Shown here: in pieces, positions 3,775 to 44,000 of the stretch | Numbering within the stretch: the stretch's first letter is position 1 | Layout of the letters: each line of letters opens with the position of its first letter | DNA from: Protonemura montana | Lineage: Eukaryota > Arthropoda > Insecta > Plecoptera > Nemouridae | Direction of reading: 5' to 3' | Assembly (NCBI GenBank): GCA_947568835.1 | Contig: OX387612.1 | Location: 8,928,001 to 8,992,000 of the forward strand | DNA: 64,000 nucleotides | Position numbers and translations under genes: made by a program | Notes under the pieces: generated by a model | The model's database searches: none | What the model saw: only the letters and a program-made list of their open reading frames with translations | Told to the model about the DNA's origin: nothing

Positions 3775-4200
3775 GTTGATTGATTTGTTGTGTTAAACGA
3801 AGAACTGCTTTAATGTCCGGCACTGGTCTTATGGTGTCGGTGAATGAGTGGATGATAATGAACCTAATCTAGCCTAGAAGGGAGGAGGGGAAACCCGGTG
3901 CCGTCACGTAGCCTACTCCTGTCGAAGAGAACCAAGGGGACCACCGGCTTAACGTCCCTTCCAAGGGACGGAACAACGCGAACAACAGGATTCCTCCACG
4001 AATCCATGCTGTCGAGAGGTTAATAACCAAGGCGAGTGAAGTTGCTGTACTAACTTTCATCCCTCCAACCTCTCACCCGAACAGAACTGTTCATGTGTAT
4101 GATGGTCACCCATCCAATACCGGACCCAGCGCAGTGTTTCTAAACTTCGGTGATCTAACAAGAATCAGTGTTTCCAACACGCCAAACCGTTCGGTTTTTT
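3775..4200 (-). mobile_element. 5S-headed SINE, near full length
   Basis: The reversed tail (complement of GTCGTTAAACAC and TCAATCAA) is at 3773-3800. The central domain follows (complement of AAGGGACGTTAAGCCGGTGG, at 3940-3965). The 5S-like head is at 4095-4200 (complement of GATCACCGAAGTT and TTGGATGGGTGACC). Confidence 0.85.
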
Positions 4201-4290: not shown

Positions 4291-5753
4291 TAATATGGAG
4301 ACAGGGTCTCCAACGCAGAATCACATCAACGAGAATAATTACATTTACACCCTGCTATCAGCAGATAATTTGTAACGAAAAAAGTGCGTACGCTCTGAAT
4401 TAAATCCAGGTGTTATTCTGGATCGTGTGTTTTCTTTGAGATGGAGGGAGGGGGAGAGGAAAGGAAGCTGTGCCAAAAGGCGAAAAACATTTAAACAATT
4501 ACTATACTCTCGCTATGCTTTGTCGGCGCTGGCTGACAAAGGCTAGCGTTGCCTGAGCTTAGCTACGTTTAGCCTTGCTATCGCTTTGCGTGGTCATGAC
4601 CTTGTGTTTTTGGCATTTATTTTCCAGAATAAGATTCTGAGAATACACCTACGTTCTGCTGAATGCCATTTCCAAATAAAATTTTCGCCAACACTTAAAA
4701 ATAACCTGCGTACGTGAGCGTACGCCCGAAATAACCACTGCCTGCTATGTCTTTGAGAGCTTATGGCGGTACGAGCCAATGCGAAGGCCACAGGATTTTT
4801 AGTTGTTACAGAAAATTTAGTTGTTCTTTAGAATTCAAAGCCCAGTTCAAACAAATTTTGTCAAATCTAGTGCTAAGGTGCATATAAAGTATAGACATGA
4901 GTCCAAAAACTATCTACACAGGATTGGTGTCTTCGGCTATAATAGAAAGTATAATGAAAATAGCTTGCATAGAGATAAAATTTCAATAATATCGAAACAA
5001 TAAAAAAACAGAAGAGAAAAAAAAACGTACTAGGTCTTCTACATTATATGATAAGAAATATCAAAATTATAATCATATGTACTTTTGAGCCTTATCAGCA
5101 CACAAAACATAATTGTAATTTTCTTAGAATTTTACGAAAAGAAATTATTTCTAGGCGATTGCACTTACAAGTTACAGTACAACGAAATGAAGGGTACGTC
5201 ATTGCCAAGAATGCATGCAAATAAGACGGTGTACATTTTCGGAGCAAAGTTTAGTCAATTTTATATAGGTGTGATTATCTGCAACGGTCTTTAAATTTTG
5301 GAAAAAAATCGTCAGTGAACCTCGAGTGAATTGAGTTTTAAACTTTCCAACGGGGATTCAGAGGTGTCTTTATTCGATTCATGTCTATCTTGTCAGGTGT
5401 CAAAATTTCAAGCCATCTCGTCTCGATCTCGACTCTAAAGCAAAGAGGTAACACTCTTTGTTGGCGAAATCGTTGCATGAGTGTGCAACACCGGACAATG
5501 CAGCCCAATCAACTAATTATATCAGCTGACATATTTCAGAGGTAAACATTAACCATTATAAATGCGTGTTGCTCGAATTCTGTACCCCTGAGTTTTGGGG
5601 ATAAGCTAAATCATTGCATCCGGCTATACACGAGCAAATACTTGATTGTTTTCCAAAATTCCACAGCAGAAGATTAATCTCAAAACCGAACACATATGCT
5701 ATCACAATAACACAACTGTGTCAATCGCTTGCAATTAAAACGCATGCAACCAA
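4291..5753. other. Intergenic, AT-rich, few landmarks
   Basis: Contains a MITE-C relative at 4805-4915 (CAAAGCCCAGTTC, TAGTGCTAAGGT, TAGACATGAGTCCAAAAAC). No gene or RNA is seen in the remainder. Confidence 0.5.
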
Positions 5754-5761
5754 TATAAATA
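5754..5761 (+). promoter_or_regulatory. TATA-like box upstream of the receptor gene
   Basis: TATAAATA lies 66 bp before the chosen ATG at 5827, the spacing expected for a TATA box plus a short 5' UTR. No upstream 5' UTR exon was identified. Confidence 0.35.
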
Positions 5762-5826
5762 AACGGTGCTACTGCAAAATCTTGTTCGTGTTTGTTCAAC
5801 TATTTCGGCTTCAGTTCAATTAACTA

Positions 5827-8800
5827 ATGATCAATTTCCTATACAATATGTCTCCGTGTGCGCTGGCTTATCTGCTTGTAGTGATAATTTCAAAAAGTTT
5901 TCAAGTCAGCGGCCTTCCAACTTCAGACGACCAAGATCCCCTCACAAAACTTGCCCAAGATGCTGAAGCCATACGGAAACTAGCTCTAATATCCACGCCG
6001 GACAACGAGACTCTTCAAAATCTTGTCGACATTTTGGATCTAATCGCGCACAGAGAACAAGAGATAATTCCTAGTCGCAAAGAGGTCAGTCTTATTTCGG
6101 GAATCATTCTAGATTCGGCGGACGTCTTGGGAAACGTATCCAGGATCTGTAATGAGTATGACCTCCAGGTGAGCTCGTCATCGGTGACGGCTAAAATTGT
6201 CAAAATGTTTCGTCCAAAAAAAGTCTTTTATGAATACGTTAACATTGACAAACATAATGATAACATGGAATCCAGCGGACATCCCGTTTACAACAATGAT
6301 ATTTTAGAAATACGCCTAGTTTGCGTTGTCTCTGACTTTGTGCATGTCGGCTTCATTATCTATAATGCAAATACGAGCCCGTTGAAGCCGGTACCAGACT
6401 TGCAGATTAACATTCTTCAGTACTACGTCATCGACTTGATCCTGATAGCCGGCTCCGAGCGGATCGCTCCGAGCGAGGGATCGGAGTGCCTCTCCAAAGA
6501 GTTTTTTGACACCATAAGCTTCAAATACAAAATCGGCTATAATGTGCGTGGTGCCGAGTATGGATGCGCTCGCTGGAATTTGTTGGATAACGTATGGACC
6601 ACAGATAACTGTTTCATCGACCACCAGGAATATAATTTTTACGCGATTTGTTACTGTGACGTCAAGGGTACCGCGAAGGCCGTCCAATACGTTATCTACG
6701 TGTTCAAGGATGATCTTCAGGAGGCTGTCTTAAGCGAAGATCACTATTTAGACAAGCACGTACCTGACGAGTACAGTGATGTGGAATATAAAAAAGATAT
6801 TTTTATGGGCATTGGAATTGCGGATGGAGGTAATTTAGTAAATCCAATAACACCTGAAAAGAGTGTCCAAGTGCCCTGGGTTGACCGTAGCGTTAGGTTC
6901 ATTGCGGCGGAGGGAGCGATCCGTGAGATTTTTACCCAATTCTCGGACCAGTCGCAGTGGCTGGAGCAGCTGGTATACAAATACTTGGACAAAGTGATGC
7001 AATTTGACAACATCTTCCTCGTCAACAACAGCACGGCGCGGATTCTCGAGGATATCGGCATTGTCTTAACCAACATGACTCCCAAGAACGGCATGAGCAC
7101 GCTCACAGTCAGCAATTACGATCTCATTGGCTTTCTGGCGGAGTTAGATGATTATCGCCTAGATCCCCCGATTGGTTTCGGTATGAGCTATGACAAACCT
7201 GGCTATTTAGGCATAGTCTACTTCCGTGCACATGAGTTAGTGGACAAGACGCTATTGTTTAGAAAAGAGAACTACTACTCTCTTCTGTTTTCCCAGTCGG
7301 TTGCTCGTCAAAACACGCGATATGCATTTCTTCTATACCCATACAAGAAGTTCTTCAAGGCGACTACAGAGATTGACGGCTTGGCCGTTGTTACTTTTCG
7401 CGTACTTGACGTTGTCCTCACTCCAGACCTAGAGGACACTCAGGACCAATTCGTGCACATGCATCTGGGGAAAAACAACGGTCGAGTGTATGAAGATGGC
7501 AACACTGCGCTGGATTATGGATGCGCGTACTGGAGCGTCGAGAGACAAGGGTGGACGTCAAGAGGTTGTCGCCTCAACCCCGACATCTTTGTTAACGTGT
7601 GCTCTTGCAATATGACGGCGAACTTTAACGAGTCTCGTACCCGCGGTCAGTATGTTATCTACGCCACCAAGAACTATGAATTCAAGACTCGCAATCAATT
7701 GTCACCATCAAAACTGATCCCGGGCGGACTCATGCAGGAGTATGTCGCAGAAATCGGGGCCTTGGTGCATTACCCGTACGGCAACAGTGCAATCGCCAAG
7801 CTAAATGAAATATGGAACAGATTCACATTCGAAATGGAAGGCCAGATTTACATGACTTCCACAAACAAAAGAAACACAATAACAAACCTGCGTCGCATTG
7901 CTATAGACAACGACTGTGCTAACGAAGAGGTGACCTTAGACGATCATAGTCTTCACTGCGTTTGCTACGAACCAGACTCGGTCGTCGCCTTTTCGTTCAT
8001 CAAAAAAGGTGTAGGTTTTTTAGCGACGCCCTACAGAAAGCAAACTGGCGTTCTGAAATCCGCTTTTTCTAACCAAGCGTTTTTCTTCTTCCGCGTCTCG
8101 GATTCCGTCGCGCAACAAAACGAACGGTTCGCTTTTCTAGTATACAACCTCAACGGCCAATTGCGACCTCTACCAGTCACCGTCGACTCCATCGTTCAAT
8201 CCTGCGCGGTTGAAATCGTCCTCCAGCCGCGGAACACTACCAACTCTAGCATGCAATTCGTGGAGTATTATCTCGACCAATCCGAATACAACTCTACCTT
8301 GGGCTGCGCATTCTGGAGCGACATCATCGGCGATTGGTCTACAATGGGCTGCAAGATGGCGACGATTGACTCAATGCGCCTGTGCAATTGCACTCTAGCG
8401 GGTAACCGTCATCAACCTGCCACAGGCGGTTCGTACATAGCGTATTCATACATCGAAAGCGTTTTCGACGAATCCGTGTACGCCACGATTGGTGCAGAAC
8501 CCTTCACCGACAAGGACTTCATCCTCAGTCAAGGAGCGGCTCTAATCCACAATGCTTCTCGATTGCTCGTCGACGACGCTCTTGTCGTCAAAATGCTGCA
8601 AGTTTACGTCCGGATTCTGAGGCTTTCCCCGCCACAATCCTACTTAGAGGCGAGCATGAACCAGACTTTGCATGACTTTGAATCTACCTTCAGCAAGTTC
8701 CACGTGATTCCTGTGAAACCGGTCTTACAATGCTACGGAGTCCACGGCACTTGGAGCGTGAAGAAAGCCCAAGAGGCCAGCGACTTGTCCTCCAACGCGA

Positions 8801-10233
8801 TCCTCTCCACCGTGGAGACCAGCAACGTGCCTGTCATTTCTGACATGGCATACGTAAACATTGGATACTTCAGCCCCTATGTCGCTAACGACACTAAACC
8901 TTACTTTGGATTTTACGTCTCCAGAAATACAAGCTTTACAATGCCTATCCGAGGCATTTCTGACGTCTCCTTGGTGTTCGGCCAAAGACCGCTCTTTGCT
9001 TGCATCATTGAAGACTTCCACTTGCTAGTCCGTACGCGCTTGGTCTTCATCTTGTATCCTCTAAACCTTTCCTCTTACCCCCTGTCAATGACTAAGTACC
9101 CCATTTTTAACTCTATACAACTTGACATCTATATCAGTTCCAAAAATCTCACCACAAATCTTAATGACAATCTGGCTCCGGAAACAATGGAGACATACGT
9201 AGATGTGTTTTTCGCCCCGACGGACCACCCCGAAGACTACGTAGACATCGCGTGCGCGTCCTGGGACGACGCCAAGAACGACTGGACCGACCAATTTTGC
9301 CATGTGGACGTCAAACTTTCAGCATTTCGCTGCAACGTTGCCAACCACGCCGTCATGCGCATCGTCTTGTACGAGTACACAACGCTACTGAACTTTTCCT
9401 GGCTGTCAATCGAAAACATCACTGGTCCTACCATTGCCTTTCTATTTGGAGCGTCCATTTCCATGATCGGATTCCTAGGCATTTTGATGACTGCACTGGT
9501 GATCCCAAACTGGCGCGAAGAGCTCGGTCACAAAGTGTTGATGCAGCTGACGGCGTCGTCAATTATCTACCTCGTTTTGACAATGTTCCGCGAGACGCAT
9601 CTCATCCTCTCTGACGCCAACAACTTCTTCATTCCAATGATTATTTTCTCAGCTTGCGTTCACTACTCCAGACTGGCCCACTATTGCTGGGGCTTGGCAA
9701 TGTCAATGCTTCAATACAGAAAGTTTTTGAACGTGGCTGCAGGCGCGTCGCCCATAACTCACCCTCTTCTCAAAGTGAGCGCCTTTGCTTGGGGATTGCC
9801 TCTGGTTCTTCTGATCGTCTTTCTATCTTGGGACCAGAGAGATCACTTTTGTATGCCGAACAAGGCTACTCACTACGCACTCTACCTGGTGCCTGTTATC
9901 ATCGTCGTGCTGCTTAACTTGGGGCTGCTGGTTAGGGTGCTGTACCACATCCAATACGAGAGCAGTACAGGACAGGACAAAGAATTGCAACGCCACGATG
10001 TGGACGAAAATGAAGTGATGAAGCGCAGGCTCAAGCAGACCGTTCTGATGTTCGTCTTGTTTGGGATTCCGGCAGGGTTTGAGATGTTTAACGACATCGG
10101 AGGGACGCACTACGTATGGGTGGACTACTTCAACAAGATCCTAGATTCTATTCAGGGGTTTGTCTTGTTTCTGTTCTTTGTCGTTATAAACCCGAAAACA
10201 AGGGGGGCCTGGAATGAAAAACTAGGCCATTAA
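5827..10233 (+). CDS. Adhesion-type (family B2-like) GPCR with four tandem GPS/GAIN-B-like modules, intronless
   Basis: 1,468 codons without an intron. Residues 1 to about 28 are a signal peptide (hydrophobic ALAYLLVVII). Four cysteine/tryptophan motifs of GPS type follow. They are C247-W250-W257-C262-C275-C277; C566-W569-W576-C581-C592-C594; C827-W830-W837-C842-C853-C855; and C1143-W1146-W1153-C1158-C1169. Each is followed by a hydrophobic beta strand (for example QYVIYVFK). Modules share a preceding element like SVARQNTRYAFLLYP or SVAQQNERFAFLVYN. Seven hydrophobic helices begin near residue 1200, with family B2 features HYSRLAHYCWGLAMSMLQYRKF split over TM3, WGLP in TM4, and LDSIQGFVLFLFFVVINPKTR in TM7. 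The cytoplasmic tail is only about 13 residues. Adhesion GPCRs usually have one GAIN domain cut before a tethered agonist; none of these motifs has the usual H-L-[ST] cleavage triad. An alternative start is Met at 5848. Ligand and G protein are unknown. Confidence 0.85.
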   Translation: MINFLYNMSPCALAYLLVVIISKSFQVSGLPTSDDQDPLTKLAQDAEAIRKLALISTPDNETLQNLVDILDLIAHREQEIIPSRKEVSLISGIILDSADVLGNVSRICNEYDLQVSSSSVTAKIVKMFRPKKVFYEYVNIDKHNDNMESSGHPVYNNDILEIRLVCVVSDFVHVGFIIYNANTSPLKPVPDLQINILQYYVIDLILIAGSERIAPSEGSECLSKEFFDTISFKYKIGYNVRGAEYGCARWNLLDNVWTTDNCFIDHQEYNFYAICYCDVKGTAKAVQYVIYVFKDDLQEAVLSEDHYLDKHVPDEYSDVEYKKDIFMGIGIADGGNLVNPITPEKSVQVPWVDRSVRFIAAEGAIREIFTQFSDQSQWLEQLVYKYLDKVMQFDNIFLVNNSTARILEDIGIVLTNMTPKNGMSTLTVSNYDLIGFLAELDDYRLDPPIGFGMSYDKPGYLGIVYFRAHELVDKTLLFRKENYYSLLFSQSVARQNTRYAFLLYPYKKFFKATTEIDGLAVVTFRVLDVVLTPDLEDTQDQFVHMHLGKNNGRVYEDGNTALDYGCAYWSVERQGWTSRGCRLNPDIFVNVCSCNMTANFNESRTRGQYVIYATKNYEFKTRNQLSPSKLIPGGLMQEYVAEIGALVHYPYGNSAIAKLNEIWNRFTFEMEGQIYMTSTNKRNTITNLRRIAIDNDCANEEVTLDDHSLHCVCYEPDSVVAFSFIKKGVGFLATPYRKQTGVLKSAFSNQAFFFFRVSDSVAQQNERFAFLVYNLNGQLRPLPVTVDSIVQSCAVEIVLQPRNTTNSSMQFVEYYLDQSEYNSTLGCAFWSDIIGDWSTMGCKMATIDSMRLCNCTLAGNRHQPATGGSYIAYSYIESVFDESVYATIGAEPFTDKDFILSQGAALIHNASRLLVDDALVVKMLQVYVRILRLSPPQSYLEASMNQTLHDFESTFSKFHVIPVKPVLQCYGVHGTWSVKKAQEASDLSSNAILSTVETSNVPVISDMAYVNIGYFSPYVANDTKPYFGFYVSRNTSFTMPIRGISDVSLVFGQRPLFACIIEDFHLLVRTRLVFILYPLNLSSYPLSMTKYPIFNSIQLDIYISSKNLTTNLNDNLAPETMETYVDVFFAPTDHPEDYVDIACASWDDAKNDWTDQFCHVDVKLSAFRCNVANHAVMRIVLYEYTTLLNFSWLSIENITGPTIAFLFGASISMIGFLGILMTALVIPNWREELGHKVLMQLTASSIIYLVLTMFRETHLILSDANNFFIPMIIFSACVHYSRLAHYCWGLAMSMLQYRKFLNVAAGASPITHPLLKVSAFAWGLPLVLLIVFLSWDQRDHFCMPNKATHYALYLVPVIIVVLLNLGLLVRVLYHIQYESSTGQDKELQRHDVDENEVMKRRLKQTVLMFVLFGIPAGFEMFNDIGGTHYVWVDYFNKILDSIQGFVLFLFFVVINPKTRGAWNEKLGH

Positions 10234-10715
10234 ATGTTGAGTATTATTTTACATATAATTATAAGAGATATATTCTTTTCGATTTTTTCTTAATATTGTC
10301 TTTGTCTTGTATGTATTTGACTTGTAATTTCACGTGCGAGTGTTTTTTTCTTTTTACAATTACGCCACCTAGCACAATGTCCATGGTTTTCAGATTTTTT
10401 TTTTTTTTGCTTAGATCACGTAATGAAACCTGTAATTAATAAGGCTAAAGTCTCTAAATTTTGCAAGAAAATCCGTCGGAAGAAACTCTCGCCAACGCGT
10501 TTTACATAATTGGTCGAACGACAGTATACCCTAGTCAAACAATAACATGATTACACTAACAGAACTGTTCAACCATAATTTGTAACACTTGTTTAACTCA
10601 CTTCTAATATGTGCACTTTAATCAATAGACTTGCTGCCACCGGAAGTGTACCATTCACAGAATGTAACATGCAATATATGTACGTACTCTTTATTGTGTA
10701 ATATAATTGGTGTAA

Positions 10716-10721
10716 AATAAA
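10716..10721 (+). terminator. Candidate polyadenylation signal for the receptor gene
   Basis: AATAAA, about 480 bp after the stop codon. The intervening sequence is AT-rich with no other feature. Confidence 0.35.
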
Positions 10722-10944
10722 ACGAACTAAAATGTACGCTCACTTTTCAAAGTTTCCAGTTTCCCAGTAAACCCTGCACTACAGTACCATGGAATGTGCT
10801 AAATAGCACACTCAAGGGTTGCAGCGATCGATTAGTCTCCAAATACCGATAACTTATCAATTTAATTATAATAAGGCAATGAAGGGCCGAAGCCAAAGTG
10901 ATAAGTTTATCATGAAACATTCTAGTCAAACATATTTTCCAAAG

Positions 10945-11520
10945 TCCAGCAACACTGCGCTGAGTCAGGTATTGGATTGGTGACCATCATACACATGACC
11001 AGTTCTGTTCATGAGAGAGGCTGGAGGGATGAAAGTTCAGCAACACTGCGCTGAGTCAGGTATTGGATGGGTGACCATCATACACATGACCAGTTCTGTT
11101 CATGAGAGAGGCTGGAGGGATGAAAGTTCAGCAACACTGCGCTGGCCCAGGTATTGGTTTGGTGATCATCATACACATGACCAGTTCTGTTCGGGAGAGA
11201 GGTTGGAGGGATGAAAGTTAGTACAGAAACCTCGCTCGCCTTGCTTATCAACCTCTCGACAGCATGGATTTGTGAAAGAATCCTGTTGTACGCGTTGTAC
11301 CGTCCTTTGGAAGAGACGTAAATCCTGTGGTCCCCTTGGTGCTACGAGTAGTCTACGTGCATACTGCGGGTTTCTCCTCCTATCTTCTAGGCTAGGTAAG
11401 GTTCATCATCATCCTGATCGTCATTCATTTTTTCTCCGACGCCATTAGACCTGTGCCGCAGGGCCAGTTGTCATAACAGCGCGTCGTTAAACCGTTTAAA
11501 TCCCGCAAATCAATTGAATG
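10945..11520 (+). mobile_element. 5S-headed SINE with three tandem heads
   Basis: Three consecutive head units of about 90 bp (from about 10945, 11035 and 11126) each carry CAACACTGCGCTG, TATTGGAT.GGTGA.CATCAT and CCAGTTCTGTTC. They are followed by one central domain (CTCGACAGCATGGATTTGTG) and one tail ending at GCGTCGTTAAAC. Confidence 0.85.
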
Positions 11521-12291
11521 AGACCAATTTCTCTCTGGACTCCAAGGTGGGAGGTCGTCCCGTCTGACTCTTCAGTTGTTACGCCACCACTTATAAGCGC
11601 ATAATAAAAGATGTCGAGGGTACATTGACAGCAACAAGAAAGTGATGCGAAATTATGCTGCGAAAACAAAGATATCGAGCCACAAGATACATTAATATGC
11701 TTACAAATGTTTTTATTTCTAATTTTTTTTTTTAAAAGGGTGGTTTGAATATTAATAATAAAATAAAGTATTCAATAATCATACGCTATGAGCATTGATG
11801 CAAGCCAAAGAAACGATAGCATTAAAATAAGTATGTGTTGCATTTGTGCAACTTTTGTCCTTTTGCGAATCAGATGGGTAAATAGAATGTGTTGGAATAC
11901 TAAGTTTTGGGACAAACACACTCAATTAAATTGATTTTATTACAAAATATATGGATCTCTTTTAAGCTATCGAATACCACTTTTCGCGGGGAATTCTGAA
12001 CTAAATTGTAGATTAAAATTGCGCGTGATATTTAGGCTGTGAAATTACGCACAGCTGTTGATCTCCATACAATAACCTCAAAATCTCTAAGGTTGCCGGC
12101 TTCACCGAGGAGTTATTATATTGCTTAGTTTAAATAACACGGAATTGATTTCTTAGTTTAATTCAGAACGCAATTCACACTCCACAAGTCCTGTAGAGTG
12201 TTTTTTCTGAATGCCCTTCAAAACACTGTGACAAGAAAGGCACTTTTGCAACTAAATTTATTTTTCGAATTCTATGTCTTCAAGGTGAAGC
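11521..12291. other. Intergenic upstream of PARG, nothing recognised
   Basis: AT-rich. No TATA box or initiator stands out, and the PARG transcription start cannot be placed. Confidence 0.4.
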
Positions 12292-21983
<9,692 letters not shown>

Positions 21984-23569: not shown

Positions 23570-26500
23570 ATGTGTATAGGACCGTTCAAACGTATATGCC
23601 ACTGGGGTCCTTTGACAGCTCTTGGTGAGGTTATGTTTCAAATATGCATCATTTTCTTCAAACCTCCATGGTCTTATATTTCGTTACGCGCCAATGACTT
23701 GTGTTTCATACATCCATCCCATCCGATTAGAAGTGTGTATTACTTATAAATCCCTTGATTCAACGGTCTGCCATCCATAGATTCAATCAATCGTTTGGAT
23801 TTCCGACACTTTGTGCTTCAGCATCGGGTGTCGGCATGAAGATCTTTTAGAAACGCACTGCAATTAGAAAACACCAAGCCTTTTTACCATATAATTGCTC
23901 TCTTTTCATTAGCGTTTCACTGCTAAAATATCCCTTTCAATCTAGGTGTGTCATTAAAGTTCTCAATAGTAATTTTGAAAACCTAGTTCAGCTTGCGAGA
24001 AGTTGAAGTACGGTTTTGAATGCTGAAGTTAGTAGGTTTAAGCATACCTGTGTTGTTTTTTTAGGAATCGTGAAAAGTGTGTCGTACATGACGATACATT
24101 GCAGCAGCATGTGGTGGCCCCCCAGGGCATCTCTGGGGGGCTTCGCAAATATTTCATTCTTTCTGCTCTGCAGCGCACTGACATTTTACCACTTCTTGAG
24201 TGCCATTTACGAGGGACCAGGCTACTTGCCACTGAAATGGCAACCGGTGAGCTCTTTTTTTTGTCTGGATTTTTAAGACAGTAGGTAGTAACTCGGTACC
24301 TATAAAAATGAATAATCCCTGTTGCTGAAGGCTCTCATCTAGGTTTACTTAACCGGAGAGTAGTCATGATGAGGTCTTTTAGACTGGGTTATTCTTAAAT
24401 CAGTTGGTATTTGTCTGGCTGTCTGGCTTTACCTACCATATCATAAAAACTTGGTGAGGTTACTGAGCAATACTCGATTTAGTTTTCTGAGGAATTGTAT
24501 TAAAATAAGAGGGGTTATTTGGTTGCCTGGTCTTTTTGACTGCCATGCAAGTACTTAGGTAAGCAAAACATGTTTTCTGAGTCATTTTCATTTGTCTTAT
24601 TTATTATTGTTGTATTGGACTATTCTTCGATATCAAATGGTGGCATAATACAACTGCTATTTGTTGGTACAAAACATTAGAAAAACTACTACCATTTGTA
24701 CCCAATGCTCCCACTTAATTTGCACAAAGCATACTGTTACCACTTGTGTGGACTTTGTTGCAAGTGAAGAAGTAGAAAGAGATGATAGTGAGTGATCTTA
24801 TCAAAAGTTCAATTGTGTAATCAAAAGAATACTTGTAAAATCAAAATAAAACACAGCCCCTGTAATGAAATGTAATCTGTGTTCTTATAAACATACAAAA
24901 ATAAAATGAAATCGTTCATCACCTTGTATTCTACCACAGCTATGATAAACTCCCGTTTGTTCGCAAACAAAACGTCACCCTGTAGTCATTTGTAAATATT
25001 ACAACCTATTAGTTTTACAGAGGCGCGACATTAACATCAGGTTAAATGTGGATTGGGAAGTATGTGTATATTTAGCTTTGTATTTTTTTTTCAGGATGTT
25101 GTTGAAGATTCAACATATCTACAGTTCTGTCAGATTTGTCAAGGCTTTAAAGCTCCCCGTTCACACCATTGTCGAAAATGTAAGTAAAAACTTTTCAGTA
25201 CTAGATTAGCTGATTTAACAAAAACTATTTGAAATGGGTTTTGAATTGGGTTTTAAAAACTAGTGCTAATCAAGTAGACATGAGTCTAAAAACCATCAGA
25301 TTAGCTGATTGTTTTCTTTAAATATTTTGTAAAACCTAAGAGATGGTAATACATGAACCACAAGGTCCTGCCACTAAGATAAGCTGTCGAGAGGTTGATA
25401 AGCAAGGCTAGTAAAGTTGTACTAACTTTAACTCCTCCAACCTCTCTCATAAACAAAACTGGTTAAGACTACAATGGAGACCCATCCAATACCTGACCTA
25501 GCACAGCGTTACTTAACTTCGGTGATCTCACAAGGATCAGTGTTTTCAACATCTCACAATACCGAACGGTTTGGCGTGTTGGAAACAGCGGTTCTCGTTA
25601 GATCACCGAAGTTAAGCAACACTGCGCTGAGTCAGGTATTGAATGGGTGACCATTATACACATGACCAGTTCTGTTCGGGAGAGAGGTTGGAGGGATGAA
25701 AGTTAGTACAGCAACTTCACTCGTTTTGCTTATCAACCTCTCGACAGCATGGATTTGTGGAGGAATCCTGCTGTTCTCGTTGTACCGTCCTTCGGAAGAG
25801 ACGTTAAGCCGGTGGTCCCCTTGGTGCTTTTCGACAGGAGTAGGCTACGTGCCGGCACCGGGTTTTCCCTCCTTTCTTCTAGGCTAGGTTAGGTTCATCA
25901 TCATCCTCATCATCATCATCATCCACTCATTCACCGACGCCATTAGACCAGTGCCGCATGGCCAGTTGTCAAAACAGTGCGTCGTTAAACACCACAAAAT
26001 AATAAATAATAATAATTCAACATCTCACGCCATGTCAAATGTAAAACTGTGAGCACTTAAATTCAGCAGCCCCGACTCAAAGCACGTAAGTAGCTCCTTT
26101 TAAAATCGAGTGTCGCCATTCCAGGTGGACGGTGCGTAATGAAGATGGATCATCATTGTCCTTGGATCAACAATTGCGTGGGACATATGAACCACGGACA
26201 TTTCACCGCGTTCTTGGTCTGGGCCGTCTGCGGCTGCTTGCAAGCCAGTGTCGTGTTGGCGTGCTCACTTTATCGAGCACTCAATCGAACCTGGTGAGTT
26301 TCCAGGCCTGCCAATGTCATTTTCCAAGTGCGGAGGCTACTCCAAGGTTATCTTCCTAAAACCTAGGCGTAGTTAATCCTTGTTGTATCCATGTCATTTT
26401 AATACCCTTGGCTGCTCCTAGACATCCTCATGTTATTTTGCTACTTCATTGCTTTTTTTTTATAGTACGTACCAAATCGAGCAAAGCTTTGCTGTTACCG

Positions 26501-31508: not shown

Positions 31509-31622
31509 ATCCACCTTGGAGGTTAAGGTAGATCACGTAAAATTCCACTGGGCAGTGCAAAACAACAATTTCTTGTATCTTAACTGATCGAATCAACCCT
31601 AAAATTGTACATCCATCAAATA

Positions 31623-32699
31623 ATGAAGATTGTTCTAGTTTTATCAATTATCTTTCAAAATTTTGTGTCCATTGCCAATGCCTCACTTGGCAACATTTCC
31701 TTGTCTTCAGATATAAATCGAGTCGCACATGGCTCTCAGCCAACGATCGGCCAATTTAAGGCGGTCGTCGCCCTTATCTTCAAACTTGACGTTGGCGCTC
31801 CCGGCGATTCTAAATCTGTTTGCACGGGGCAAATCATAACCAAACAGTGGGTCATGTCTGCAGTACACTGTTTTGCCCGACACCTATTTTACAAATCGTT
31901 TTACCCGAATAGAGTCGTCAGCTACAAAATCACAATCACTGCTGGCGTCATCGACTACAAGGAGAACATCTCAAGCAGGCAAGATCGCACAGCAGGTCCA
32001 GATGATTATCACATTTATCCTGGATCCCTAGAAACAACAGGGAAACGACCGCCGATAAGGAATATCGACAAATTTGTTCGCGCTATTTTGGACAAACTTG
32101 ATATAGCGCTTCTGTTCGTCAACAAGCCTTTCGAGTTCAACAATAACGTAGGTTTGATAGCTCTAGCAAGGAACTACATCGTTGATGGCATAGTGAAACC
32201 AACACCGTGCTACTCTGTCGGCTTTGGTAGAACTGATGAAGGCAAATCTACTGACATGCAGTATGCCGAGGTGATTGCAGGTGGTAAGAATTTCTGCAAA
32301 AGGTTGAAAGACGATTACTTGGGCATTGGACGTGGTTACCATATATGTTCAAAAGGCAAAGGTCGTACCAACATTTGCCCTGGGGATTCGGGTGGACCAC
32401 TTATTTGTGGCGTTGGGGACCAAAGCGTAAGCGTGGGCGTTTTGAGTTATTACAGTTTGAAGAGCGGACCGCTTCTTATATTTGAGTCGATGAGTTGCGG
32501 CGAATCGAAAAAGGGTGTGGCGACGTACATGTTTCCTGGACATGCCGAGAAATGGATAAACGAGGTGATTGGGACGCCGAATTTCGTTGCGTTTTTGAAG
32601 AGAACGGATTATGCTGGTGCTCGTTTGTGCGTTGGATGTCCGGCTGTGCTATATTTAATGGGATTGACCTTAATTTTTGTCAACTTTGCGTATGTATAA
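31623..32699 (+). CDS. Secreted S1-family (chymotrypsin-like) serine protease, possibly GPI-anchored
   Basis: 358 aa, single exon. MKIVLVLSIIFQNFVSIANA is a signal peptide. The in-frame TTG upstream at 31605 is not used. Catalytic triad: His82 in MSAVHCF, Asp160 in LDIALL, Ser256 in CPGDSGGPL. The residue at the S1-pocket position (chymotrypsin 189) is Asn250, not the Asp of trypsin, so specificity is not trypsin-like. The activation site is atypical: NRVAHGS in place of RIVGG. A hydrophobic C-terminus (AVLYLMGLTLIFVNFAYV) after small residues suggests GPI attachment or a membrane anchor. There is no extra domain. Substrate unknown. Its upstream region and start are duplicated at 30028-30165. 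Confidence 0.88.
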   Translation: MKIVLVLSIIFQNFVSIANASLGNISLSSDINRVAHGSQPTIGQFKAVVALIFKLDVGAPGDSKSVCTGQIITKQWVMSAVHCFARHLFYKSFYPNRVVSYKITITAGVIDYKENISSRQDRTAGPDDYHIYPGSLETTGKRPPIRNIDKFVRAILDKLDIALLFVNKPFEFNNNVGLIALARNYIVDGIVKPTPCYSVGFGRTDEGKSTDMQYAEVIAGGKNFCKRLKDDYLGIGRGYHICSKGKGRTNICPGDSGGPLICGVGDQSVSVGVLSYYSLKSGPLLIFESMSCGESKKGVATYMFPGHAEKWINEVIGTPNFVAFLKRTDYAGARLCVGCPAVLYLMGLTLIFVNFAYV

Positions 32700-33282: not shown

Positions 33283-33722
33283 AACGAACGGTTTGGCGTG
33301 TTGGAAACACCGGTTCTCATGAGATCACCGAAGTTAAGCAACACTGCGCTGAGTTAGGTATTGGATGGGTGACCATCATACACATGACCAGTTCTGTTCG
33401 GGAGAAAGGTTGGAGGGATGAAAGTTAGTACAGCAACTTCACTCGCATTGCTTATCAACCTCTCGACAGCATGGATTTGTGGAGGAATCCTGTTGTTCAC
33501 GTTGTGCTGTCATTCGGAAGGGATGTGAAGCCAGTGGTCCCCTTGGTGCTCTTCGACAGGAGTAGGCTACGTGCCGGCACCGGATTTCCCCTCCTCCTTT
33601 CTAATCTAGGCTAAGTTCATCATCATCCACTCATTCACCGACGCCATTAGACCAGTGCCACATGGCCAGATGTCAAAACAGTGCGTCGTTAAACACAATA
33701 ATCAATCAATCGATCAATCAAT
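33283..33722 (+). mobile_element. 5S-headed SINE, full length
   Basis: Leader CGAACGGTTTGGCGTGTTGG, 5S-like ATCACCGAAGTTAAGCAAC and TTGGATGGGTGACC, central domain, and tail ending AATCAATCAATCGATCAATC. Confidence 0.92.
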
Positions 33723-35019: not shown

Positions 35020-38000
35020 ATGGATCTGAAACCTAGAGGTTCAGACGTTTCTTCGTTGTGGTCGAATCTTTCATCGAGTTCATCTCGAGCAAAAAAGGAA
35101 GTTGTTCAGCAAGGTATGAGTTGGTTTGGCTTGGCCATATTTTTTTGAAAGTAAATAACTGAAATACTTGGTATTTTGCTATTTATTAATGTTTTTCGTT
35201 GCAGTTGTAGAGGTAGAAGTTGAAGAGACTCCGTATGTGGTCGAATACGAAGATGAGGAACTCGAAGCACTGGTAAGGAGTAAACATATACATATATTTT
35301 TATTTTGATAAATTTTCATTTCGCCGCACTTACGATTAGGGCGCATAATTTGACTTCAGTTTCGTTATTCTATTTGCTACATTGTGAATGTGCGGCAGAT
35401 TATTGCAAAATATAAATAATATCAGATTATTTTTACGCAATAAATATTCCTTTTGCCGGTCAATTTGATTATAATAACGACTAAAAATAACGCTTAAGAT
35501 TAATACATTCTTAATTAGTTAATTTTCTAATTCGAACTTTTGCTTTTTAAATAATTCTTAAAACAGCTAAGTACAATCAGAGTGTTTTTATTTTATTTTG
35601 CTAGAGTTTTTCTTACATTTCTCAAAAGTGCTAGAAGTTGGTTAATCTAACTCCATAAAAAATTAAAAAATATTCATATAAAAAAATTTGAAACTATTTG
35701 AAAAATGATAAAACACTGTTGAGATTGACGTGATATATCTACAAGATTGTTCTGCACAGGTAAAACTAATGTACTTTCAGCTTCTGACCTTAAACACGTT
35801 TTCCAGGTGAAAAAGGTGAAGAAGATGGTGCGTCTTTTTGACTTGCAAGAAGAAGATTGGAACAATGAAGTTTACGAGACCATCAGAGCCTTTTTCAGGA
35901 GCTCTGAGCATCTCTTACTTTGCATATTCTTCGACGAAAGCATTCTTAAAGGTAGGCCTGTCATTCATTAGCCTTTCATTCACCGTCAGCCAATGGACCA
36001 GTGCCACAGGGACAGGACAAGGCTAAGCGGTGGCCGGTCCTTGGTGCTGTTGGACAGGAGCAGCCAACACAGTGTGTCAAAGAGACAAGGCTAAGCGGTG
36101 ACCGGTCCTTGGTGCTGTTGGACAGGAGCAGCCAACACAGTGTGTCAAAGAGACAAGACTAAGCGGTGGCCGGTCCTTGGTGCTGTTTGACAGGAGCAGC
36201 CAACACAGTGTGTCAAAGAGACAAGACTAAGCGGTGGCCGGTCCTTGGTGCTGTTGGACAGGAGTAGCCAACACAGTGTGTCAAAGTGACAAGGCTAAGC
36301 GGTGGCCGGTCCTTGGTGCTGTTGGACAGGAGCAGCCAACACAGTGTGTCAAAGAGACAAGACTAAGCGGTTACCGGTCCTTGGTATTACCTTCTTGGTA
36401 TTTGTCTATTACAGGCAGTCTTGGACCCCCAATGGTACCTGTGCATGACCTGACGTACTACGCTAAGTATGTGGACCCTAAGAGGCCGGTGGTGGCCAAG
36501 CAGTTCTTTAAGAGCATCCAGTTTGGCACGCTGAGTGGTAACATCGAGGGTAACATCTTGAAGATCATGCAATACGTCTTCGCGCCACAGCTTTTCTTGG
36601 GCAACAGGCTCACTGGAAGTATCCTTTGGCGAACGATTGTGATGAAAACAAATTTGTATACTGCGTTTTGAATACCAAGTAATGAATTTTAGTAAAGAAG
36701 TTGTAATGGTTTTATACTCATATTTACTTTATCTTGCCATAGCACCAGTTTTGACAAAAACTATTTTTACTATAACTTGGTTATTGTTATAATTTTTTTT
36801 GGTTCGTTTGTTATCGGAAAATTGTCAGGACTGCTCTTACCCTTGATAAAGTAACAGGAACAAGTTACAAAACGTCTGGAAATTTAGTTGTTCTTCATTT
36901 AGCATTCAAAACCCAGTTTAACATTTTTTTTTTCAAAACTAGTGCTCAGGTAAGATAAAGAAAAGATGCGTCTAAAAATATATAATACAAATTGTGATGT
37001 TTGAGAAAGTGAAAAATAGTTGTTCTTTGCAAGTAGCAACTAATTAATGTAATTGCACTTAAAATTCAAAACTTCCAAAACGAAATTCCATTCGATACGA
37101 TGCAAAATCTCCTTTTTGCAAACTCGATGGAGAGCTTGGTGATTACCTCCTAATGGAGGTATTTTGTCAGACATCTATTTAAATGACAGCTTTAAAAATG
37201 GAATGTTTTTATAATTTTGACATTGTTCCTGTGGTCTAACAATCCTGTTCAAACACAACAAGTTTGCCTTGACGTACACCCCTGAAAGGCGTCAAGTGTG
37301 ATCTTCTGAACGACACGCATACGTTCCTTGCAAACTTGACGGACATGCATCACAAGCTGAGTGGGCTTACGGTGCTCTACATCCCACTGGAAGGTGCAGA
37401 CATGACAGCTAAAGACGCCAGCAACGATAAGGAGCTAGCCAGGAGGCTGGAGGGTAAGCGAAGCCATTTCAGCGCTCGAATTGATGCTCTGACATGCGTA
37501 CAAGCGCCGCTTAGCGTTGACAATTGAGCTGCTTTTGATGAAAATTATGGACAAAAAATACAAAAACACAATTCCAGCTTCAAAAACCAGGATTAACCCC
37601 TGGAAATTAAAGATGATCAGCCAATCGCAGAAAAGAAAAAAAAAAATATTTAAAAACACAATTTTTATGCTTAGAAAAAAAAAATTTTTTTTTCGTCTTT
37701 TCATTACTTATACCGCTTATACCGGTTACTGCATCAAATTTGAAAGTAGTTATTAAATATATTAGGACGAAATCTGATTTAAATTGCAAACGCTTGCAAT
37801 GCGCCGGGTATTTTATTAAAATCAACACTATAACCGGCTCAAAAATAGTTTGGGCATCAGTTTTTGAGACGGTTATAGTGTTGATAGTAATAAAAAAGTT
37901 ATTAAATAGTTTCCCCTCAATGTTGTTCCAACAGTCACGTGTCCGTTGTTCCAAGCTGTTCTTTGGTTGTTCTAGCCGTGTGCGTGAAATGGAACACCCA

Positions 38001-41000
38001 AATCCGTGTGGCCTTGAACGACGAGGATGAAGCTTCACAATCGCAGCGGCAGGGTCCTGTTGACGAGTACGACTTCTGGGTGGAACGATGTAAGTGCAGA
38101 TCTGTGTTTGACTGGGCATGTGACTCTGCCCCAGTACAACTTTCAAGTGTTCGACTGGGCATGTGACTCTGCTCCAGTGCAACTTTCACGTGTTCGACTG
38201 GGCATGTGACTCTGTCCCAGTGCAACTTTCACGTGTTCGACTGGGCATGTGACTCTGCCCCAGTACAACTTTCAAGTGTTCGACTGGGCATGTGACTCTG
38301 TCCCAGTGCAACTTTCATGTGTTCGACTGGGCATGTGACTCTGCCCCAGTGCAGCTTTCACGTGTTCGACTGGGCATGTGACTCTGCCCCAGTACAACTT
38401 TCAAGTGTTCGACTGGGCATGTGACTCTGCCCAGTGCAACTTTCACGTGTTCGACTGGGCATGTGACTCTGCCCCAGTACAACTTTCAAGTGTTCGACTG
38501 GGCATGTGACTCTGCCCAGTGCAACTTTCATGTGTTCGACTGGGCATGTGACTCTGCCCAGTGCAACTTTCAAGTGTTCGACTGGGCATGTGACTCTGTC
38601 CCAGTGCAACTTTCAAGTGTTCGACTGGGCATGTGACTCTGCCCAGTGCAACTTTCACGTGTTCGACTGGGCATGTGACTCTGTCCCAGTGCAACTTTCA
38701 CGTGTTCAACTGGGCATGTGACTCTGTCCCAGTGCAACTTTCACGTGTTCGACTGGGCATGTGACTCTGTCCCGGTGCAACTTTCACGTGTTCGACTGGG
38801 CATGTGACTCTGCCCCAGTGCAACTTTCACGTGTTCAACTGGGCATGTGACTTTGTACCAGTGCAACTTTCACGTGTTCGACTGGACATGTGACTCTGTC
38901 CCAGTGCAACTTTCACGTGTTCGACTGGGCATGTGACTCTGTCCCAGTGCAACTTTCACGTGTTCGACTGGGCATGTGACTCTGTCCCAGTGCAACTTTC
39001 ACGTGTTCGACTGGGCATGTGACTCTGCTCCAGTGCAACTTTCACGTGTTCGACTGGGCATGTGACTCTGCCCCAGTGCAACTTTCACGTGTTCGACTGG
39101 GCATGTGACTCTGTCCCAGTCCAACTTTCACGTGTTCGACTGGACATGTGACTCTGTCCCAGTGCAACTTTCACGTGTTCGACTGGGCATGTGACTCTGA
39201 CCCAGTCCAACTTTCACGTGTTCGACTGGGCATGTGACTCTGTCCCAGTCCAACTTTCACGTGTTCGACTGGACATGTGACTCTGTCCCAGTGCAACTTT
39301 CACGTGTTCGACTGGGCATGTGACTCTTTCCCAGTGCAACTTTCACGTGTTCGACTGGGCATGTGAATCTGTCCCAGTGCAACTTTCACGTGTTCGACTG
39401 GGCATGTGACTCTGTCCCAGTGCAACTTTCACGTGTTCGACTGGGCATGTGACTCTGTCCCAGTCCAACTTTCACGTGTTCGACTGGGCATGTGACTCTG
39501 CCCCAGTGCAACTTTCACCTGTTCGACTGGGCATGTTACTCTGTCCCAGTGCAAATTTCACCTGTTCGACTGGGCATGTGACTCTGCCCCAGTGCAACTT
39601 TCACCTGTTCGACTGGGCATGTTACTCTGTCCCAGTGCAAATTTCACCTGTTCGACTGGGCATGTGACTCTGTCCCAGTCCAACTTTCACGTGTTCGACT
39701 GGGCATGTGACTCTGCCCCAGTGCAACTTTCACCTGTTCGACTGGGCATGTTACTCTGTCCCAGTGCAAATTTCACCTGTTCGACTGGGCATGTGACTCT
39801 GTCCCAGTGCAACTTTCACGTGTTCGACTGGGCATGTGACTCTGCCCCAGTGCAACTTTCACCTGTTCGACTGGGCATGTGACTCTGTCCCAGTGCAAAT
39901 TTCACCTGTTCGACTGGGCATGTGACTCTGTCCCAGTGCAACTTTCATGTGTTCGACTGGGCATGTGACTCTGTCCCAGTGAAACATTCACGTGTTCGAC
40001 TGGGCATGTGACTCTGTCCCAGTGCAACTTTCACGTGTTCGACTGGGCATGTGACTCTGTCCCAGTGCAACTTTCATGTGTTCGACTGGTCATGTGACTC
40101 TGTCCCAGTGCAACTTTCACGTGTTCGAATGGGCATGTGACTCTGTCCCAGTGCATCTTTCACGTGTTCGACTGGGCATGTGACTCTGTCCCAGTGCAAC
40201 TTTCATGTGTTCGACTGGTCATGTGACTCTGTCCCAGTGCAACTTTCACGTGTTCGACTGGGCATGTTACTCAGCTCCAGTGCAACTTTCACGTGTTCGA
40301 CTGGGCATTTGACTCTGCCCCAGTGCAACTTTCACGTGTTCGACTGGGCATGTGACTCTGCCCCAGTGCAACTTTCACGTTTTCGACTGAGCATGTGACT
40401 CTGTCCCAGTGCAACTTTCACGTATTTAACTGGCAGAATTGCTCGCTCTCGTGTCACTCCCGATGGCTTTTTCTTGCTCTAAGAATTTCGACGATGCAAC
40501 TGGAAATCAAATGAATGCACTGACAGCTAGTGATCACGTGTTCGGCTGGGAGCGCTCTCGCTTGGAGCTGGTGCTAACCCGGTAGAGATCATAACGTCAT
40601 GGAGCAGGTTTCAAACCCACTGACATGCAAAAGTCGAAAACGCCATAAGAACCACCAAATTCAAATGGACATTATATGTCGAAAAGCCAATGCAAAGCCA
40701 TGCTATTGTAGAATCTTGGTGGTATCGTTCACTGTTATTGAATCAGCAATGTAAATGCTTTCTGAAATCGTTTATTTTCACTACTTTCTTAATATCGCAG
40801 GTGACAACCTGGCCGGGCTTCTCGCCCAGATGGAGAACTCTCAGTTGAAGCACGTGGCTTCCATCCTTAATGCGGCGTCGTCTGCCTACATCCGTACCTT
40901 CGCCTCCCTGGCTGCAGACGTGCAGGTACCACTAGGAGGTGTCTCATTAGAGAACATTTATGAGACATTACCATATTAGTTTCCAGAGAATTTCAATTGA

Positions 41001-44000
41001 TTTGTTTGATGCCGCAGTCATAGAAGGGTCATAGAGACCCCACTAAATGGTATATCCTTCCAGGACTAAAGCTTATACAGCTGTGAGATTTTACAAATGT
41101 TATTTTCAGAGAATTTAATTTAATTGGCAACTCCAGACGGATATGGAAGAAAAGTTTCCTTTTAAGTTGATCCAATAGTTTGGCGAATAAGGGGGTGATG
41201 ATAAACCTAGCCTAGAAATGAGGAGTGGAAACCCGGTGCCGGCACGTAGCCTACTACTGTCAAAGTGCACCAAGGGGATCACTGGCTTAACGTCCCTTCC
41301 GAAGGACGGTACAACGCGGACAACAGGATTCCTCCACAAATCCATGCTGTCGTGAGGTTGATAAGCAAGGCGGATGTAGCTAATATACTCAAGTTATGTT
41401 CCTCTAACTTCTCTTACACAGAACTGTATGATATGATGATAACCCAACCAATATTTGACCCAGCGCAGCGTTGCTTAACTTCGATGATCTCACGAGGACC
41501 GGTGTTTCCAACACGCCAAACCGTTCGGTGGTCACCCATCCAATACCTGACCCAGCGCAGTGTTGCTTAACTTCGGTGATCTCAAGAGGACCGGTGTTTC
41601 CAACACGCCAAACCGTTCGGTGGTCACCCATCCAATACCTGACCCAGCGCAGTGTTGCTTTACTTCAGTGATATAATGAGAACTGATGTTTCCAAATCTC
41701 CCAACTGTTCTATCTTGGTTTTTCAATCCCTGATTGGATGTATGATATATTTGTAAGATGATATTTGCTCCAAGCGAAGTTTTGTCCAACTCCGAGCAAG
41801 AATTACGTTCTTCTATCTTGTGCAGACCGCTCTGGAGTTGGCTACGTCCAACGTGGAGTTCCTGCAGCTGTTGACGGCGCCGTGCGCCCGCCTGGCAATG
41901 GAAAAATCCCCCGAAACTTTCCCAGGCCACGTGTCCAAGATTCTTCAGGCACTGCGTGTCATCTGGATGCACTCCGAGTTTTATCGCAGCTCAAAGTAAG
42001 TGGCACTTACTAGGAACATTAAGTGTTTTTTTTTTTTAAGTTTAGAACAATTTTTAAAGGTTTGCGAAATCTAAATTAAATTTCAAATGCTTGCAATGCG
42101 CGGAGTATTTTATTATTAGGAACACTAATAACAAAATGTCTAAAAGTTTCAATATGTAAAACATGTAAAGGTATTCTTCTATTTTTGGCTCTCGTTCGTC
42201 AGTGCAATTGACTCAAAGAATCTCTCAGAACTGATTAAGACGATAGTTAAGGAAACTACCCGGAGTTTTGTGAGTGATAAGAGTGATCTGAGTGATGTGA
42301 GTAGATTTTAATGATTAAGGAAAAAACTTAAATGAGAGCTAATTTACAATTAAATGTTGACCCCCTTTTCTTGCTTTACGGTTTAGACTCATTTTCCTGG
42401 CTCAAACTTAACATTAATATTAAATAAATTCATCAAAATAATCCCTGAAAAGGCTAAAAAACAAATAAATTCACATTAACAAAGATTACGCGTTTTTCAA
42501 ACATAATCGAGAATTAGTAATACGGTTTGATTTTGTCGATATTTAAAGCTACACACATCCAGTGTACCATTGCAGAAAGGAATTCAAGTGAAACAAAAAC
42601 TATTTGAACTGGGTTTTGAATGCTAAGAATAACTAAATTGCCCAACGTTTCTTAAGTTGTACCGTGTTAAGTTGGGACCAGTAGCCCGGCTAGCTCAGTC
42701 GGTAGAGCACGAGACTCTTAATCTCGGGGTCGTGGGTTCGAGCCCCACGTTGGGCGCACTTTTTGGTTTTTTGGCAACGACCGAAATTAATTTTTTGTCT
42801 CCAGTCGATTGTTGGGAAAATTCGGCATTATCTAATTATTCAAACAACGACATGGTTTTAACTTGTAGACATGAGTCTGAAAACCGTCATAAACAACATG
42901 GTTTGTTGCAGGGTTTTTCGGTTTTTCTGGTATTACCACTAGGGAGCGGAAACCAGCAGGCGAAAGTGGGAAAGAAAGTTAGACTGGAAATAGGTGCAAC
43001 CGAACCGGGACACGAATCCGGGACCTACCAATTTGGAAATGATCCCGGGGAGGTCCCGGGTTCGTATCCCGGTCGGTTGCACGTTATCCAGTCTGGCTTT
43101 CTTTCCATAGTTTGTTTAATTAAATGTCCGGTCCATATTTCGCCAAATTAAAGATTGTTAAGAGTGATAGGCAAATTTTCTTCACTGTGTTATCAGGTAT
43201 ACAATGGATTACATAATAATCGTGCACAAGTAAATTTAACACATCTACGATCCTTTCCAAAAATTTTTAGATTAAATTTCAGAAAACATGTACTGAAAAC
43301 AACAAAACTGCACACTTTCGATTGGCCCGTAAGTTAGAGCAGTACCAGAGTTAGAGCAGTCCTGATAATTTTCCGATAACAAAAGAACCACACTAAATTA
43401 TAGCAATTACCTAGTTCAAGCATCCTAAATGCATTTAGCTGAATGCAACCTAACCTAACCCCTACCCATTCTTTCCAGGAGTCGCATTACTGCTCTGTGC
43501 CACGACCTCGGTAGTCAGGTGATCTTGCAGTGTCGTCGTCACGTAGACTTACCGGCCACCATCCACGGCATGTCCAGACACGGCGAGGCGAGTCTTCGCC
43601 GGTGCATCGACTGCTGCAAGGGGTACAAGATGGCGTACCTGTCGGTGAGCAAGCATCCACAACCAATCACGGTGTTTCCAACACTTCAAACCGTTCGTTG
43701 GTCACCGATCCAATACCTGACCCTGCGCAGTGCTGCTTAACTTCGGTGATCTCTTGAGAACCGGTGTGTCCAACACTTCAAACCGTTCAGTGGTTACCCA
43801 TCCAATACCTAACCTAGCGTAGTGTTGCTTAACTTCAGTGATCTCACAAGAACCGGTGTTTCCGACACGCTAAACCATTCAGTCCAACCACTCATCCAAT
43901 ACCCGACCCTGCTCAGTGCTGCTTAACTTCAGTGATCTCATGAGAACCTGTGTTTCCAACACGCCAAACCGTTCGGTGGTCACTCATCCAATACCTGACC

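Follow-up and report, generated by a model that had tools for sequence, protein, structure and literature searches.

A plecopteran adhesion-type GPCR with four tandem GAIN domains and no canonical cleavage residues

We analysed a stretch of 64,000 nucleotides from Protonemura montana (NCBI GenBank assembly GCA_947568835.1, contig OX387612.1, positions 8,928,001 to 8,992,000 of the forward strand), referred to below as the window. At positions 5827-10233 of its plus strand lies an open reading frame (ORF) without intron, which starts with ATG and encodes 1468 amino acids. The product is an adhesion-type G-protein-coupled receptor (GPCR). Its ectodomain consists of four full-length GAIN-like domains, which are homologous, arranged in tandem and about 250-320 amino acids long. 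With a probability of roughly 0.6, it belongs to an uncleaved receptor family in which the GAIN domain has come to be used repeatedly and the distal copies vary. The features of the gene, numbered in window coordinates with protein residues in brackets, are as follows.

5827-10233, plus strand: four-GAIN adhesion-type GPCR, single-exon ORF
5827-5916, plus strand: probable signal peptide, predicted from hydropathy only (hydrophobic residues about 4-30)
5935-6711, plus strand: GAIN module 1 (37-295), the most divergent among paralogues; hhalign boundaries, identity medians
6565-6657, plus strand: GPS-like motif 1 (247-277); pattern
6883-7683, plus strand: GAIN module 2 (353-619); profile alignments, Pfam, PDB search, model
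7522-7608, plus strand: GPS-like motif 2 (566-594), above the Pfam GPS cut-off; pattern and Pfam
7720-8466, plus strand: GAIN module 3 (632-880); profile alignments, Pfam, PDB search, model
7915-7965, plus strand: cysteine cluster (697-713) within module 3, no GPS motif
8305-8391, plus strand: GPS-like motif 3 (827-855); pattern and Pfam GPS
8467-9396, plus strand: GAIN module 4 (881-1190), adjoining the membrane, with the strand RIVLYEYTTLLNF in the Stachel position; profile alignments, PDB search
9253-9333, plus strand: GPS-like motif 4 (1143-1169), one Cys of C-x-C missing; pattern
9433-10194, plus strand: seven-transmembrane (7TM) domain (1203-1456), class B2/adhesion type; PDB search, hydropathy
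4939-11550, no strand assigned: duplicated DNA block, 88% shared with a copy (L009) on another contig; sequence comparison

Results

The ectodomain is built from four homologous GAIN modules

Profiles were built for each module from 19 full-length paralogues (open frames of more than 1250 amino acids, among 22 that were read). In profile-profile alignments, the six module pairs matched with probabilities of 99.3, 99.5, 98.7, 100, 98.7 and 99.2% over 186-248 columns, and each module also aligned, over 211-241 columns, with those receptors of this genome that have one canonical GAIN (95.5-98.7%); the 7TM domain, used as a control, reached at most 6.5% against the modules, and only at residues shared by construction. 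Module 4 matched the canonical GAINs with 98.6% over 241 columns, placing a GAIN directly before the first transmembrane helix (TM1), and module 1 was assigned to GAIN by its homology to modules 2-4 and to the canonical GAINs. These alignments bear out the internal duplication proposed in a preliminary description of this DNA, where the repeat was called GAIN-B-like; the homology stands, while its extent has to be enlarged, since the repeat unit is the entire GAIN with both its helical part A and its beta part B. Two single-module derived receptors of the genome (L029 and L032) aligned weakly with modules 1-4 (32.7-90.3%).

In profile searches of the PDB, the best matches were the GAIN chains of BAI3 for module 3 (E 1.5e-4), of ADGRG3 for module 2 (E 0.0033) and of latrophilin-1 for module 1 (E 0.0096). 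Pfam GPS was found at E ≤ 0.05 in 5 of 18 members for module 1, 18 of 19 for module 2, 15 of 19 for module 3 and 8 of 19 for module 4; among the window's own modules only module 2 (above the curated cut-off) and module 3 (just below it) matched on their own. The matches thus extend well beyond the last module, which is the weakest of the four in sequence matches. On the whole window protein, Pfam recognised GPS twice, best at 566-600 (E 1.6e-9), and nothing else that it listed at E ≤ 1 was credible.

A GAIN domain is described as a helical subdomain A followed by a beta-sandwich subdomain B that carries the GPS or its aligned sequence (PMC11697300). Modules 2 and 3 were modelled with AlphaFold, with the four modules of the window as the only input. 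Both models have three N-terminal helices followed by strands, and solved GAIN domains matched them ahead of other folds, with ADGRB2 and ADGRB3 (BAI2, BAI3) as the best Foldseek matches; axonemal chains were also among the best rows of the VIA and Foldseek lists. Structure prediction, which the preliminary description had put forward as a check, thus points to GAIN for modules 2 and 3 at low confidence, and modules 1 and 4 are assigned by sequence.

GPS-like motifs are retained

The full pattern C-x2-W-x6-W-x4-C-x10-12-C-x-C starts at residues 247, 566 and 827. The fourth copy, at residue 1143, turned out to be a relaxed form in which the first Cys of C-x-C is replaced (F1167-R-C1169), so that three of the four copies reported earlier are complete; the same cysteine is missing from motif 4 of the close copies L009 and L010. 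Shuffling the window protein 20,000 times with its composition preserved produced neither the full nor the relaxed motif. As had been described, a strand follows each motif, in the form Q/R-Y/I-V/I-x-Y, with only the Tyr invariant. Across 22 sequences, the window included, the pattern was present four times in 17 and three times in the other five, four of which are truncated or broken frames. A suggested fifth, degenerate copy at residues 697-713 was rejected: Cys697 and Cys713 fall inside module 3, the W-x6-W core is missing, and Cys711 is shared by L009 alone among the 19 paralogues.

The catalytic His is missing from every module copy examined

Many adhesion GPCRs are cleaved, although not all (PMC13197933); cutting depends on an H-x-S/T motif, and uncut members are known (PMC13062082, PMC13197933). 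Among 75 module copies of the four-module group, none had His at the catalytic base position, which after the last Cys is occupied by hydrophobic residues, Ala or Thr; Ser or Thr stood at the +1 nucleophile position in five, never together with His, and this position is mostly Ala, Asn or Gly. The window receptor itself lacks the autoproteolytic H-x-S/T, which we did not treat as defining for an adhesion GPCR. Of ten other GPS loci checked in the same genome, seven (L031 and L034-L039) had a properly placed H-x-S/T; L029 and L032 were without it, and the motif was not found by pattern in L040. The term autoproteolysis, which the preliminary description had attached to the duplicated fold, should therefore be dropped, and from these sequences the receptor is probably not cleaved at its modules.

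The 7TM domain is of the adhesion type

Hydropathy gave seven peaks at residues 1203-1456, with further peaks at the N-terminus and at 159-177. When the window protein was searched against the PDB, adhesion-GPCR 7TM domains matched at residues 1205-1465 (ADGRD1, E 5e-6), and an 18-member 7TM profile matched ADGRG2 (E 4e-14) and 15 more adhesion-GPCR chains at E ≤ 0.001. By these profile matches the domain is an adhesion-type, class B2 7TM domain; with four GAIN modules instead of one, the window gene is a variant of an adhesion GPCR.

Divergence is greatest in the distal module

Median pairwise identity was highest in the 7TM domain (0.585), followed by module 2 (0.372), module 4 (0.342), module 3 (0.275) and module 1 (0.228). 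By a simple counting method, the ratio of nonsynonymous to synonymous divergence (dN/dS) over the whole ORF was 0.20-0.56 in all seven pairs; dN was highest in module 1 in six of the seven and lowest in the 7TM domain in four. By these values the genes are constrained overall, with the distal module either the least constrained part or the most diversified one. The GPS Cys and Trp are among 191 columns kept in at least 85% of the 19 paralogues.

The receptor belongs to a large family with variable module number

Contig C15 of the assembly (258.5 Mb in 34 contigs) carries the window. With the 7TM domain as query, at least 143 matches were found in the genome, some of them pieces of one gene; their frames were of at least 1200 amino acids in 40 cases, 800-999 in 12 and 550-799 in 53, the others being shorter. 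Contig C14 has 55 and C15 has 23 of the 143 matches, and the two make up about 10% of the genome. At 13 Mb each, they hold 78 of the 143 matches together with many odorant-receptor exons; they may be regions where genes duplicate often, or chromosomes of a special kind. The same genome gave at least 130 Chitin_bind_4, 111 7tm_7 and 129 7tm_6 matches, which identify it as an insect genome; 7tm_6 receptors are insect-specific. Searches by tblastn with module 2 against viral contigs and with the 7TM domain against prokaryote genomes returned no relatives, in collections that barely cover animals and are therefore uninformative on distribution.

Modules were counted by profile in 32 frames; most four-module rows had also built the profiles, L030 and L041-L045 had not. 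Four modules were counted in 19 frames, one in six and five in L043. Four frames had three modules, L042 being whole and the other three truncated. The script counted six in L041 and L044, of which L044 has five motifs and is read as five. Module number changes within a clade: L041-L043, with 6, 3 and 5 modules, respectively, group together by their 7TM domains (100/99). The six-module receptor L041 (C2:5618300-5624900) hints at modules recently copied or converted, as its first four GPS motifs closely resemble one another. L014 (C4:5625000-5633000) is a four-module frame with several hundred extra C-terminal residues and a repeated acidic and His-rich end. There is a second expansion, of single-GAIN receptors. 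It comprises L029 and L032, the two that were read and that have both lost H-x-S/T, together with some 50 frames 550-799 amino acids long. L031 (C2:19526000-19532000), by the look of its sequence a polycystin-like ORF, has a canonical GPS (C-x-C-T-H-F-S).

When the modules of 11 of the 19 paralogues were placed in one tree, modules 1-4 each formed one group (support 100/99, 90/85, 53/79 and 100/99), so that the duplications predate the spread of this part of the family; module 4 joined the canonical GAIN weakly (83/39). The four-module rows were one clade (100/100) in a 24-row 7TM tree. When five more receptors were included, the long-branched four-module L030 fell outside it, and a single origin of the four-module layout is not secured. 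As the block at 4939-11550 is common to the window and L009 with flanks included, the gene was copied as a block of DNA rather than as bare coding sequence, and a retrocopy origin is unsupported for these closest copies.

Other features of the window

Eight matches to the 5S rRNA family (4075-4195, 20195-20313, 25561-25681, 33283-33403, 41515-41608, 44040-44160, 47482-47582 and 53077-53192) mark the head of a single dispersed element, about 430 bp long and by its looks a 5S-derived short interspersed element (SINE), whose 91-92-bp head is tandemly multiplied in several places. A 26-bp minisatellite unit is common to 14854-16119, 45728-46241 and 61697-62280, a 68-bp unit to 16736-17661 and 36016-36385, and a 43-bp unit is repeated 54 times at 38104-40423. 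The ORF at 31605-32699 encodes a trypsin domain (Pfam E 4.5e-22).

Discussion

The results are consistent with the following mechanism. The entire GAIN, helical part A and beta-sandwich part B, would have been duplicated in tandem to form the ectodomain of a plasma-membrane adhesion-type GPCR. This receptor is part of a large insect family, intronless and expanded in its lineage, whose members range from minimal one-GAIN receptors to receptors with 3, 4, 5 or 6 GAINs. Loss of H-x-S/T in all four modules would leave one uncut chain, for which activation by shedding of an N-terminal fragment would be impossible. The variable distal modules would meet an outside partner, as the conservation pattern suggests. 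In a step modelled on established adhesion-GPCR biology, the conserved module 4, with its last strand in the place of the tethered agonist (R-I/V-x-x-Y/F-E-Y/F-T/A, then NF), would relay the resulting change to the 7TM core, which is conserved as well. The receptor may have a sensory or contact role; the features that bear on a chemosensory one are copy number, dispersal and divergence pattern.

Several observations weigh against this picture of an uncleaved receptor with GAIN repeats and variable distal modules. The best PDB match of module 4 (ADGRG3, E 0.55) is not significant, and the window's own 7TM domain does not match Pfam 7tm_2, which 8 of 18 members do match. The models of modules 2 and 3 are of low confidence (mean predicted local distance difference test scores of 46 and 50, predicted template modelling score 0.52) and superpose poorly in Foldseek (root-mean-square deviation 10-18). 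An H-x-S/T triplet occurs off the catalytic position in 9 of 75 module ends, and the dN/dS of module 1 is the highest in only three of the six pairs with a value.

The most serious rival, though unlikely, is that the repeated GAINs are mainly a stiff stalk or force-bearing chain through which tension or distance is sensed, with distal modules that choose no ligand and a module 1 that diverged by relaxed constraint. The fly adhesion GPCR Cirl is a mechanosensor with a cleavage-independent peripheral role (PMC13197933), one to six modules would alter the reach of the ectodomain, and the dN/dS of module 1 reaches 1.14 in the closest pair, window and L009, but stays under 1 in the other five that gave a value; yet dozens of copies with a conserved 7TM domain and variable distal modules look more like diversified recognition. 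We give still less weight to a two-fragment receptor, produced by self-cleavage with a non-canonical residue or by another protease. The GPS Cys and Trp and the terminal strand are indeed kept, residue changes can make GAINs with altered bases cut (PMC13062082), and four paralogues have an HES triplet seven residues past the last Cys of motif 2, but this triplet is unconserved (NES in other members) and the residues at the base and +1 positions speak against cutting.

That the copies are functionless, decaying or carried about by transposons, is very improbable: they are scattered over many contigs, some have stops or truncations, and the window copy sits in a block duplicated with its flanks that ends near SINE-like repeats, but the long open frames, the whole-ORF dN/dS and the retained GPS columns are at odds with decay. 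Least credible of all is convergence, by which modules 1-3 would be another beta domain sharing just the GPS-like cysteine motif; the weak Pfam GPS matches of module 1 and the loose Foldseek superpositions would fit it, whereas the long profile alignments among the modules and with canonical GAINs, set against the 7TM controls, do not.

Among known receptors, the Drosophila ADGRX proteins Mayo (CG11318) and Ketchup (CG15556) are minimal, with GAIN and 7TM only (PMC13197933). The single-GAIN receptors L035-L037 of this genome resemble that layout, from which the window receptor differs, in a comparison of description and layout only, by four GAINs without catalytic residues. The best solved relatives of its 7TM domain, vertebrate ADGRG2, ADGRG6 and ADGRD1, have one GAIN and other extracellular domains. 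In ADGRB2 and ADGRB3 a single GAIN follows HormR and thrombospondin repeats; their GAIN structures are known uncleaved, the state expected for the window receptor. Polycystin-1 family proteins also have GPS/GAIN but, unlike the window receptor, one GAIN and a channel-type membrane part. The gustatory and odorant receptors of the same genome show large tandem and dispersed lineage-specific expansions, with many intronless gustatory frames; being unrelated 7TM proteins without GAIN, they are alike in mode of expansion only. In open-access titles and abstract openings on multiple, tandem or duplicated GAIN or GPS, and on insect or lineage expansions, no such layout was found, a scope that leaves out subscription papers and domain-layout databases; neither "tandem" nor "two GAIN" was found in the first 300,000 characters of a 2026 consortium review or in a 2025 choanoflagellate paper. 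Similar proteins may be listed elsewhere.

The GAIN domain is regarded as the one extracellular element common to nearly all adhesion GPCRs, present once by TM1 and tied to tethered-agonist activation. Its repetition up to six times without cleavage residues would separate the fold from its chemistry and offer a natural test of what a non-cutting GAIN does, whether it serves as a spacer, binds a ligand or acts as a force element. Insect biology would also gain a large receptor family, with dozens of genes at the least, and an example of how a complex two-part domain can be copied in tandem within one exon. A bolder view, conceivable but short of even odds, is that in this insect lineage GAIN, elsewhere a single activation cassette by the membrane, lost proteolysis and may have come to serve as a general-purpose repeat comparable to Ig, LRR or EGF. 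One to at least six copies per receptor would then make up a new and very large class of receptors for diversified recognition, perhaps of chemicals or of contact.

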